The notes beneath the pieces were generated by a model. It saw only the letters and a list, made by a program, of their open reading frames with translations, searched no databases and had not been told where the DNA came from. Shown here piece after piece: positions 37,712-57,878 of a DNA stretch of 64,000 bases. The stretch comes from Bradyrhizobium jicamae (lineage in GTDB: Bacteria > Pseudomonadota > Alphaproteobacteria > Rhizobiales > Xanthobacteraceae): contig NZ_LLXZ01000141.1 of the NCBI RefSeq assembly GCF_001440395.1, positions 65,495 to 129,494 on the forward strand, given 5' to 3'. Position numbers and translations under genes: made by a program. Within the stretch, counting starts at the first letter, position 1, and every line of letters starts with the position of its first letter.

Positions 37712-37903
37712 CTGCTGCCATTTTCTGCGGCAAAAGTGGGGAACGCGGCCCTGTCTCCCTTGCACCGGCGGCCCATCCGCGCCACCTTGCGGTCCCCCCG
37801 GGGGTTTGATCAAATCCGATCCTGATCCGGCTTTTCGGGTTTCCAATGCCGCGGCGCTGCCTTGACGGGCCGCCCGGCTTTTCCATCTCTGGCGGGTATA
37901 GCA

Positions 37904-39022
37904 ATGAAGGTCACCGTCGAACGCGCGCAACTGCTGAAATCGCTGGGTCACGTCCATCGCGTGGTTGAGCGCCGAAATACCATCCCGATCCTCGGCAACG
38001 TGCTGGTCCGCGCCGAAAACGCCAGGCTGTCGCTGAAAGCGACCGACCTCGACCTCGAGGTGACCGAGACGCTGGCGGCGGAAACCGCGACCGGCGGCTC
38101 CACCACCGTGCCGGCCCATATGTTCTACGACATCGTCCGCAAACTGCCGGACGGCTCGCAGATCGTGCTGGAAGCCGACGGCGACCGCTCGGTGATGGCG
38201 ATCCGCGCCGGCCGCTCGCGCTTCACGCTGCAGACGCTGCCCGAAAGCGACTTCCCGGATCTCGCCGCCGGCGACATGACGCATTCGTTTTCGCTTGCGG
38301 CTTCCGACGTCAAGCGGCTGATCGACCGCACGCAGTTTGCGATCTCGACCGAAGAGACCCGCTATTATCTCAACGGCATCTACCTGCACACCGCCGGCAG
38401 CGCCAAGGCCGCAACCCTGCGTGGGGTGGCGACCGACGGACATCGCCTGGCGCAGATCGATCTGGGACTGCCGTCCGGCGCCACCGGCATGCCCGGCGTG
38501 ATCGTGCCGAGGAAGACGGTCGGCGAAGTACAACGGCTGATCGACGACAACGAAGCCGAGATCAAAATCGAACTGTCGCAGGGCAAGATCCGCTTCACAC
38601 TCGGGAATGTGGTGCTGACCTCGAAGCTGATCGACGGAACCTTCCCGGATTACGGCCGCGTCATTCCGCAGAACAACGACAAGGAACTGATCGTCGACAA
38701 AAAGGATTTCGAGGCCGCGGTCGACCGCGTCTCGACCATTTCCAGCGAGCGCGGGCGCGCGGTGAAGCTGGCGCTGTCCGCCGGCAAGCTGGTGCTGTCG
38801 GTGACCAACCCGGATTCCGGCAGCGCCACCGAAGAACTCGAAGTCGAATACGCCTCCGACGCGCTCGATATCGGCTTCAACTCGCGCTATCTGCTCGACA
38901 TCGCCGCCCAGATCGAAGGCGAAGTCGCCGTGCTGCGCCTCGCCGACCCCGGCTCGCCGACGCTGGTGCAGGACAAGGAAAACAAGGGCGCGCTGTATGT
39001 GCTGATGCCGATGCGGGTGTGA
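37904..39022 (+). CDS. dnaN: DNA polymerase III beta subunit (sliding clamp)
   Basis: The 372-aa clamp starts MKVTVERAQLLKSLGHVHRVVERRNTIPIL; a 14-codon upstream extension is not conserved in the family. It has the three-fold beta-clamp repeat and ends with the conserved YVLMPMRV. It encircles DNA and tethers polymerase III. About 190 bases lie between the dnaA terminator and this start, where its promoter should be. Its stop overlaps the GTG of the DUF559 frame. Confidence 0.97.
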   Translation: MKVTVERAQLLKSLGHVHRVVERRNTIPILGNVLVRAENARLSLKATDLDLEVTETLAAETATGGSTTVPAHMFYDIVRKLPDGSQIVLEADGDRSVMAIRAGRSRFTLQTLPESDFPDLAAGDMTHSFSLAASDVKRLIDRTQFAISTEETRYYLNGIYLHTAGSAKAATLRGVATDGHRLAQIDLGLPSGATGMPGVIVPRKTVGEVQRLIDDNEAEIKIELSQGKIRFTLGNVVLTSKLIDGTFPDYGRVIPQNNDKELIVDKKDFEAAVDRVSTISSERGRAVKLALSAGKLVLSVTNPDSGSATEELEVEYASDALDIGFNSRYLLDIAAQIEGEVAVLRLADPGSPTLVQDKENKGALYVLMPMRV

Positions 39023-39477
39023 GCACTTCGGGCGAGTCGCGCACCAGCCTTCCCTCTCCCCTTGTGGGAGAGGGTGGCGCCGAACGAAGTTCGACGACGG
39101 GTGAGGGGTTCGCGCCGCAGACACCATACCATAGGCCAGTCGCCAAACGCATCCGCGGCTTCGCCAAGAAGATGCGTCACGAGCCCACCGATGCGGAATT
39201 GGCCATGTGGCGACTGCTTCGCGACCGGCGCCTCGCGCGTTTCAAATTTCGCCGCCAAGTTCCGTTCCGAAACTTTATTCTCGATTTTGTCTGCTTCGAG
39301 AAGCGGCTGATCATTGAAATCGATGGAAGTCAGCACGCATCATCGACACGCGACGAAGCGAGGGAAGCGGTCTTGATCGCCGAAGGATTTCGAATGGCGC
39401 GCTACTGGAACAACGACGTGTTGCAACGACGCTCTGCCATACTGGAGGACATTTTCGTAAAGCTTGCCGAGCGGTAA
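39019..39477 (+). CDS. DUF559 endonuclease-like protein in the dnaN-recF gap
   Basis: The frame opens at GTG overlapping the dnaN stop and encodes 152 residues. The recognisable part starts near residue 44 (KRIRGFAKKMRHEPTDAELAMWRLLRDRRL, residues 43-72) and shows the DUF559 pattern: FRRQVPFRNFILDFVCFEKRLIIEIDGSQH, then FRMARYWNNDVLQ. This is the PD-(D/E)xK/Vsr-like fold. Residues 12-31 are coded by a repeat element (39052-39110), and a second, inverted copy follows the stop (39479-39538). An ATG at codon 52 is an alternative start but would cut a family helix. Biological role unknown. Confidence 0.8.
   Translation: MSTSGESRTSLPSPLVGEGGAERSSTTGEGFAPQTPYHRPVAKRIRGFAKKMRHEPTDAELAMWRLLRDRRLARFKFRRQVPFRNFILDFVCFEKRLIIEIDGSQHASSTRDEAREAVLIAEGFRMARYWNNDVLQRRSAILEDIFVKLAER
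39052..39110 (+). repeat. CCCTCTCCCCTTGTGGGAGAG element, left copy
   Basis: The element contains CCCTCTCCC/GGGAGAGGG and CGAACGAAGTTCG dyads and ends GACGGGTGAGGGGTT. It begins 29 bases after the dnaN stop. The right copy at 39479-39538 is inverted. Confidence 0.88.
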
Positions 39478-39478
39478 G

Positions 39479-39538
39479 AACCCCTCACCCGTCGCCTCAC
39501 TATGTGAGGCGCCACCCTCTCCCACAAGGGGAGAGGGG
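39479..39538 (-). repeat. CCCTCTCCCCTTGTGGGAGAG element, right copy (inverted)
   Basis: AACCCCTCACCCGTCG at the left and CCACAAGGGGAGAGGG at the right are the reverse complement of the left copy's ends; the loop differs (CCTCACTATGTGAGG). It ends about 25 bases before the recF start. Confidence 0.88.
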
Positions 39539-39562: not shown

Positions 39563-40702
39563 ATGACCCCCTCTCGCATCAACCGCCTGTCGCTCACGCA
39601 TTTCCGCAACTACCGCGCGGGAAGCGTGCAGACGCGTGGCGATGTGGTGGTGCTGGTGGGGCCGAATGGCGCCGGCAAGACCAATTGTCTGGAGGCGATC
39701 TCGTTTCTCTCGCCCGGACGCGGCCTGCGGCGCGCGACGCTGGAGGATGTCGCCGACAACCAGGGCAATGGCTCCTGGGCAGTCTCCGCCGAGGTCGAGG
39801 GCGCGCTCGGGCTTGCCACGCTCGGCACCGGCATCGATGCGCCGGCTGCAGAAGCCACCTCCACGAGCCGGCGCTGCCGGATCGACCGTGAGCCCGTAAG
39901 TTCAGCGACCGCGTTCGGCGATCACTTACGCATGGTCTGGCTGACGCCGGCGATGGACGGGCTGTTTCTCGGCGCGGCTTCGGAGCGGCGGCGCTTCTTC
40001 GACCGGCTGGTGCTGGCGATCGACAGCGAGCATTCCAGCCGCGTTTCCGCGCTGGACCGGTCGCTGCGCTCGCGCAACCGCCTGCTCGAAGTGCGCAACT
40101 ATGACGACCATTGGTGCGACGCGATCGAGCGCGAAACCGCCGAGCTTGCGGTCGCAGTCGCCGCCACGCGCGGCCAGACCGTGACGCGACTGGCGGCGAT
40201 GCTGCGCGAACGTGGGCAAGCCTCCGCCTTCCCGTCGGCGCAGATCATGCTCGACGGCTGGATGGAAAACGCGCTGGTCAACGAATCCGCGACATCAGTG
40301 GAAGATCGTTACCGCGAGATCCTGCGCGCCAGCCGCGCCCGCGACGCCGCGGCCGGCCGCACGCTTGATGGCCCTCACCTCACCGACCTGCAGGTGGTCT
40401 ACGCGCCGAAAAACATGCCGGCGCGCGACGCCTCCACCGGCGAACAGAAGGCGCTGCTGATCGGACTGGTGCTGGCGCATGCCACGCTGGTTGCCGAGAT
40501 GACCGGCATCGTCCCGCTGTTGCTGCTCGACGAAGTCGTCGCCCATCTCGATCCCAACCGACGCAAGGCGCTGTTCGACGAACTTGCAAAGCTCGGCGCG
40601 CAGGTCTGGATGACCGGCGCCGATCCTGCGGCGTTCATCGATGTCGGCCCGACCGGTGAGATTTTCGACGTTGAATCCGGCCAGGTGAGCCGCCGCGCCT
40701 GA
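39563..40702 (+). CDS. recF: DNA replication and repair protein RecF
   Basis: The 379-aa SMC-like ATPase acts in gap repair and loads RecA at stalled forks. Walker A is GPNGAGKT (33-40), the signature is in DASTGEQKALLIGL, and Walker B is PLLLLDEVVAHLD. I use the ATG at MTPSRINRLSLTHFRNYR, the family start; the open frame runs 33 codons further upstream through the repeat element. It normally follows dnaN directly in relatives, but here a DUF559 cassette lies between them. Its own ribosome site is weak. Confidence 0.95.
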   Translation: MTPSRINRLSLTHFRNYRAGSVQTRGDVVVLVGPNGAGKTNCLEAISFLSPGRGLRRATLEDVADNQGNGSWAVSAEVEGALGLATLGTGIDAPAAEATSTSRRCRIDREPVSSATAFGDHLRMVWLTPAMDGLFLGAASERRRFFDRLVLAIDSEHSSRVSALDRSLRSRNRLLEVRNYDDHWCDAIERETAELAVAVAATRGQTVTRLAAMLRERGQASAFPSAQIMLDGWMENALVNESATSVEDRYREILRASRARDAAAGRTLDGPHLTDLQVVYAPKNMPARDASTGEQKALLIGLVLAHATLVAEMTGIVPLLLLDEVVAHLDPNRRKALFDELAKLGAQVWMTGADPAAFIDVGPTGEIFDVESGQVSRRA

Positions 40703-57724: not shown

Positions 57725-57791
57725 TCTCTCCCCTTGTGGAAGAGGGTGGATCAATCGCGCGAAGCGCGATTGAGACGGGTGAGGGGTTCTC
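57725..57791 (+). repeat. CTCTCCCCTTGTGGAAGAG element, left copy of a gene-free pair
   Basis: The same family as the elements around the DUF559 gene, with dyad AATCGCGC-GAA-GCGCGATT inside and the end GACGGGTGAGGGGTTCTC. The inverted partner is 37 bases away at 57829-57878. Confidence 0.85.
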
Positions 57792-57828
57792 TCCGCGGGT
57801 GAACCTCTCGCATTGGAGTTCGCGGATA

Positions 57829-57878
57829 GAACCCCTCATCCGGCGCTTCGCGCCACCTTCTCCCACAAGGGGAGAAGG
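57829..57878 (-). repeat. CTCTCCCCTTGTGGAAGAG element, right copy (inverted)
   Basis: It begins GAACCCCTCATCCG and ends CCACAAGGGGAGAAGG, the reverse complement of the left copy's ends. It lies between the convergent MmgE/PrpD and serine hydrolase genes. Confidence 0.85.

Follow-up and report, generated by a model that had tools for sequence, protein, structure and literature searches.

Within the window, that is, the whole 64,000-nucleotide stretch of DNA that was analysed, a small gene of the DUF559 family lies between dnaN and recF and is enclosed by two inverted copies of a palindromic element, here called arms. A pair of the same arms without a gene lies further downstream. The features are the following:

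37862-39022, plus strand: dnaN, the upstream neighbour (from the ORF list; matched in 60 of 60 congeners)
39019-39477, plus strand: ORF of a DUF559 (PD-(D/E)xK, Vsr-like) nuclease (Pfam PF04480, E 3.3e-33; modelled fold)
39052-39110 (39050-39115 in the feature table), plus strand: left arm (from the sequence; 55 genome matches of the arm)
39479-39538, minus strand: right arm, the reverse complement of the left arm (88% identity to it over 60 bases)
39563-40702, plus strand: recF, the downstream neighbour (ORF list and junction analysis; ATG start placed from the sequence)
57725-57878, no strand assigned: inverted pair of this element with no gene inside (from the sequence; one of 25 closely spaced pairs in the genome)

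The earlier note had placed the left arm 29 bases past the dnaN stop and the right arm about 25 bases ahead of recF, and both positions were confirmed, with the dnaN stop TGA at 39020-39022 and 24 bases between the right arm and the ATG at 39563. The gene between the arms is indeed a DUF559 gene, whose domain spans from about 39148 to the stop of the ORF, and the gene-free counterpart is present as described (arms at 57725-57791 and 57829-57878, 37-base spacer). The further claim that the arm encodes residues 12-31 of the protein held only in part. The arm does overlap these residues of the longest ORF, whose start codon is putative, but orthologues use another frame for the first half of the arm, which is read as SPLVGEGGAERSS.. 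in some and as PLPMWERVAPKA.. in others. That the arm is translated at all is thus probably a side effect.

The left arm starts with the outer hairpin CCCTCTCCCC-TTGT-GGGAGAGGG, followed by a variable inner palindrome and GACGGGTGAGGGGTTC; in every arm, the same outer hairpin is followed by a variable inner palindrome and GGGTGAGGGG. Judged by eye, the outer hairpin is nearly constant, and the inner palindrome varies among copies while drawing on few stems. These inner stems (for example at 39080-39097 and 57751-57773) recycle GCCGAAC/GTTCGGC, GCCTCAC/GTGAGGC, and AATGAGC/GCTCATT, and by eye they differ even at orthologous arms, as if copies had exchanged them. The element matched no known RNA family at gathering score, neither in the window stretch, where whalefall-1 came closest (19.6 bits versus 37), nor in four other loci.

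The protein reaches 114.2 bits with the PF04480 profile, against a curated cut-off of 20.6, and at an E value of 0.001 the only other Pfam family found was MTES_1575, which stayed below its cut-off. E23, D52, E63, D65, and H69 are invariant in 62 sequences and are candidate catalytic residues. An AlphaFold2 model (mean pLDDT 81.7) was closest to 3hrl (Z 15.3), a structure whose sequence is also related to DUF559 (E 1.8e-37), followed by the homing endonuclease I-Bth0305I (Z 12.1, 91 residues) and Vsr (Z 10.3). The protein is best read as a predicted single-domain nuclease of the Vsr/EDxHD type.

As the earlier note had suggested, we searched the genome that contains the window for copies of the element. 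A 68-base arm gave 55 matches in the 8.73-Mb assembly (40 scored of 44 candidates), of which 52 form 26 pairs, all head-to-head (plus, then minus), and three are single. In 25 of the 26 pairs, the arms are 15-83 bases apart; in the remaining one, which is the DUF559 unit, they are 366 bases apart. The same search in three one-contig congeneric genomes (40 candidates scored in each, of 54, 43, and 42) yielded 130 matches, namely 31, 15, and 10 pairs plus 18 singles. The head-to-head arrangement holds for all 56 of these pairs, and a single wide pair per genome (367, 369, and 369 bases) encloses a DUF559 gene at dnaN-recF. Taken together, the inverted pairs of the four genomes have one orientation in 82 of 82 cases, and the arm spacing is 14-133 bases in 78 of them, which is what we call gene-free in this search; the four wider pairs all enclose DUF559. 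Genes other than DUF559 were not found inside pairs in the four genomes, with arms paired up to 1000 bases apart in the window genome and up to 700 bases apart in the three congeners. The window genome has two further DUF559 matches. One (L001) has, by eye, palindromes of a different sequence on both sides, and the flank test described below found no strong inverted match between its flanks. The other (L003, C177:53703-53999) is a divergent DUF559 domain that is part of a long open frame and has no arms. This DUF559-like domain ends a 471-residue frame and is devoid of the E-x-D-G motif.

DUF559 genes from other bacteria were examined by a flank test, in which the best ungapped inverted match between the 250 bp on each side of the domain was scored and windows of equal span from the same loci served as controls. 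The loci sampled were the best-scoring ones, mostly one per genome, and the broad set comprised the best 80 of 569 confirmed stretches, covering Alpha-, Beta-, and Gammaproteobacteria, Thermodesulfobacteriota, Chloroflexota, and others. A score of at least 18, a threshold picked after the distributions were seen, was reached by 55 of these 80 loci versus 1 of 1202 control windows, and a score of 20 by 49 loci versus no control window. At the threshold of 18, a class-level sample gave 13 of 30 and an additional group of copies 14 of 20 (a single locus appears in both, as L249 and as L282, respectively), with 0 of 220 controls; among the congeners, 25 of 33 loci reached it, counts that are non-independent as they include orthologues. 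Below 18 remained 25 of the 80 broad loci and 17 of the 30 loci of the class sample. The test is blind to pairs located on one side of the gene, and at L254 and L255 both palindromes lie, by eye, upstream of the DUF559 gene. ParE toxin genes of the same genus, which are also small, never reached 18 (0 of 30), whereas 1 of 144 of their control windows did. An explanation by chance or low complexity is ruled out by the control windows and the ParE genes. The enrichment of DUF559 genes inside inverted pairs, which the earlier note had proposed as a test, was thus observed, the arm pattern CCCTCTCCC..GGGAGAGGG..GGGTGAGGGG was found again in several phyla, and packaging in palindrome pairs generalises to many DUF559 genes in several phyla. 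One way to account for such packaging is that a transposase acting in trans recognises the arms and that DUF559 is merely carried along or serves to protect the host. The arms do act like terminal inverted repeats, and the gene-free pairs resemble MITEs; against cargo, however, stand the restriction to DUF559 inside the pairs of the four genomes at the pairing distances given above and the association with this one family across phyla, and we consider it improbable.

A 3.4-Mb genome with ten DUF559 places allowed the arms of eight units to be compared with each other. The left arm best matched the right arm of its own unit in seven of the eight, with a tie in the eighth, and in the reverse direction the own left arm was best for six of the eight right arms. 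Among 119 units scoring at least 16, the own right arm ranked first for the left arm in 54 and within the top three in 85. Arm similarity and protein similarity were correlated within the genus (r=0.34, a value reached in 6 of 2000 shuffles), less clearly so in the eight-unit genome (r=0.39; 153 of 5000 shuffles), weakly over all units (r=0.11; 5 of 500), and hardly at all in the broad set (r=0.08; 98 of 1000). One genome contains two DUF559 units that are 82% identical over 437 bp, arm to arm; in the 900 bp compared on each side, no similarity was seen outside the arms.

The dnaN-recF gap was compared in 60 congeners. Of these, 24 have a DUF559 domain there in one near-complete piece, another 4 have a broken or partial one, and in G033 the gap shows arm-like repeats before the contig breaks off. 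In 14, the gap is occupied by an intact or damaged GIY-YIG gene, and in the remaining 17, no nuclease gene was found and the gap contains palindrome remnants or other repeats; in one of these (G001), the start of a GIY-YIG gene and both arms are kept and the middle is gone. A third repeat, CCGTAGGGTGGGCAAAG..CTTTGCCCACCCTACGG, is found in the gap of G008, G013, and G058 (L208, L212, L237). First-look arm counts, rough values with 15 candidates scored per genome and with other DUF559 genes in most congeners, had a median of 55 in 24 genomes with DUF559 at dnaN-recF (counted as intact, including G033) versus 40 in 31 without it (p=0.17; five broken cases, including G037, left out).

The DUF559 gene at dnaN-recF has a median dN/dS of 0.09 (31 gene pairs with dS of 0.05-1.5 from 13 equal-length genes), a value that is rough because the median dS is 1.25. 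By these substitution rates, the gene is under purifying selection. The unit is single-copy and probably vertically inherited within the genus, and it looks like an old resident. RAYTs are likewise old residents. As this copy looks old and single, the description as a small mobile unit with a loaded and an empty form, which the earlier note had given, fits the family better than the dnaN-recF copy itself. Purifying selection and long residence would also be expected of a resident Vsr-like repair or maintenance nuclease, whose arms regulate expression or protect the mRNA and stem from dispersed pairs acting as REP-like terminators. VsrA of Caulobacter also speaks for this role, as its authors proposed it to be a Vsr-like repair enzyme (PMC12907096); the main text of that paper contains neither "palindrom" nor "inverted repeat". 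Such a role leaves unexplained why DUF559 is found in the wide pairs, why two similar units occur in unrelated contexts of one genome, and why ParE genes are armless, and we regard it as quite unlikely.

The GIY-YIG genes in the same gap are packaged as well. At 12 of 13 tested junctions, they carry GTCATTGCCGGGCTTGACCCGGCAATCCATC-like inverted palindromes (in the exception, G029, the contig ends inside the gap, and G052, with a gap of 1672 bases, was outside the 13), and these arms show a CGTC tag and a CCA tail, which in Di Nocera et al., 2013 (PMC3733652) are marks of the CGTC REPs, together with an 8-9 bp stem starting with A/T pairs. The same paper reports that no dedicated transposase was found for the CGTC class and leaves its mobiliser open. 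When the GIY-YIG sequence of such a unit served as the query at class level, a score of 18 was reached by 16 of the 30 best loci (L352-L381) versus 0 of 140 control windows; within the genus, 9 of 30 loci of the Pfam GIY-YIG family did so, and none in a top-scoring group of 17. Given these results, the palindrome association is true of a GIY-YIG subgroup and not of the whole family. This subgroup (for example L058) parallels DUF559 and is a candidate partner of the CGTC REPs. The DUF559 arms partly resemble CGTC REPs if read from the side of the gene, as their inner palindrome, by eye, often follows CCCGTC and ends with CCACC or TCCACC, and as the pairs are head-to-head. Their stems, however, are unlike the published description, the outer CCCTCTCCC hairpin is extra, and typical-looking CGTC REPs here flank GIY-YIG genes instead.

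GIY-YIG is another homing nuclease family, and its occurrence in the same gap inside another palindrome pair would suit the view that pairs spread by other means and that DUF559 is a free-standing homing endonuclease, which cleaves pairs that lack a gene and enters them through repair with the arms as homology. The fold, closest to a homing endonuclease domain after the other DUF559 structure, points the same way. Homing would nevertheless have to account for a single loaded pair per genome, although 9 to 30 closely spaced pairs are open in each of the four genomes, and for the differing arms of units within one genome. We consider homing unlikely, if less so than a resident repair function.

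Eight relatives were searched for the flanks of eleven gene-free pairs, and three loci were aligned. Of the eight, seven were read at L008: the site is cleanly empty in five, carries a CGTC-like repeat in one, and has a shortened form of the pair in another. In the alignments of L011 with five relatives and of L029 with four, the pair is common to one relative, one has an empty gap, and the rest hold another repeat. Gene-free pairs are therefore present or absent at orthologous sites, as is the case for MITEs and insertion sequences. A 4-bp TCAC duplication may flank the copy at L008, and the alignments of L011 and L029 contained no clear target duplication. The dnaN-recF junction comparison proposed in the earlier note showed that gap contents differ among relatives, and gene-free pairs have empty sites; only a single locus hints at a target duplication.

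A second recurrent site of DUF559 is carA-carB, with 9 of 163 units (L254, L255, L262, L265, L287, L292, L148, L192, L200), mostly in Alphaproteobacteria, whose arms differ where looked at. In two genomes of one genus, the carA-carB flanks are 90-93% identical, and the DUF559 stretch has no alignment longer than 150 bases. On the tree of the units, two changes are needed for the dnaN-recF units (the genus and a Rhodospirillaceae genome) and three for the carA-carB units, but a single origin per site was not rejected on a 38-row tree (p 0.245 and 0.235, respectively). At the left inner end, the consensus of the gene-free pairs, TCTCTCCGCGGACACA, equals that of the dnaN-recF units, TCGCGCCGCAGACGCC, at 11 of 16 positions, which only 6 of 20000 random 16-mers attained; at the right inner end, 6 of 16 positions agree in register, which is no significant similarity. 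The gene-free pairs may accordingly be deletion derivatives of loaded units, a view that these comparisons support only in part.

The closest known counterparts are the REPtrons, in which a RAYT gene is flanked by palindromes (REPs) that also occur as many dispersed, intergenic, gene-free copies, often close together in opposite orientation (PMC3733652). The DUF559 gene likewise lies between inverted copies of a dispersed palindrome. It encodes a PD-(D/E)xK nuclease, however, and not the HUH tyrosine transposase of RAYTs, and its arms are about 60 bp long with two hairpins and are devoid of a GTAG tag. With EDxHD/Vsr-fold homing endonucleases such as I-Bth0305I, DUF559 has the catalytic fold in common, the fold alone being compared, but it consists of a single domain of about 105 residues and is enclosed by palindromes, and no intron or intein was seen. 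As in MITEs and their parent insertion sequences, gene-free copies have both arms of the gene-bearing unit; in contrast to these, the DUF559 unit has no known transposase, and no general target duplication was found. In the literature searched, which included sections of PMC3733652, PMC5082802, and PMC12907096 and did not extend to subscription papers and preprints, we found no link of DUF559 or GIY-YIG genes to enclosing palindromes.

We rank a REPtron-like unit first, ahead of homing into pre-existing pairs, a resident repair enzyme, and a passenger, in this order. In such a unit, to which we give about an even chance, a Vsr-fold nuclease would replace the HUH transposase, and the gene-free pairs would be non-autonomous copies. 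The DUF559 nuclease would recognise hairpin arms of its own type and nick or cut the arms or a target, after which arm pairs would be copied into intergenic gaps through repair or strand transfer. The flank tests, the one orientation of the pairs, the DUF559 genes in the wide pairs, the own-arm matching in the eight-unit genome, the two similar units in unrelated contexts, the left inner ends, the orthologous empty sites, the dN/dS value, and the fold argue for a REPtron-like unit. Against it stand the single and old-looking dnaN-recF copy, an arm number that does not track the gene (p=0.17), the unmatched right inner ends, the low arm/protein correlation in the broad set (r=0.08), own right arms that were best in just 54 of 119 units, the loci below 18 (25 of 80 and 17 of 30), the target duplication at one locus, and the one-sided palindromes of L254 and L255. 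That DUF559 moves or maintains these repeats, as the earlier note had supposed, is what we infer as well, and with so many relatives packaged alike, DUF559 proteins become candidate enzymes for the spread of repeats of this kind.

A broader and more tentative view, to which we give somewhat less than even chances, is that dispersed palindromes in Proteobacteria and beyond are spread by small homing-type nucleases of two unrelated folds, DUF559 for the CCCTCTCCC-type and GIY-YIG for the CGTC REPs. Small nuclease genes packaged in repeats across phyla are concrete candidate mobility enzymes with their own likely substrates. If true, this would point to a role for DUF559, which is annotated as a family with unknown function, and as the packaging names both candidate enzymes and substrates, the question of the CGTC mobiliser is open to a direct cleavage or transposition assay.

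At six loci (L302, L305, L306, L308, L313, L314), the orthologous gaps hold this element in one species and other repeats elsewhere, one CGTC-like and some GTAG-like, and by eye these gaps appear as if they were shared landing sites.
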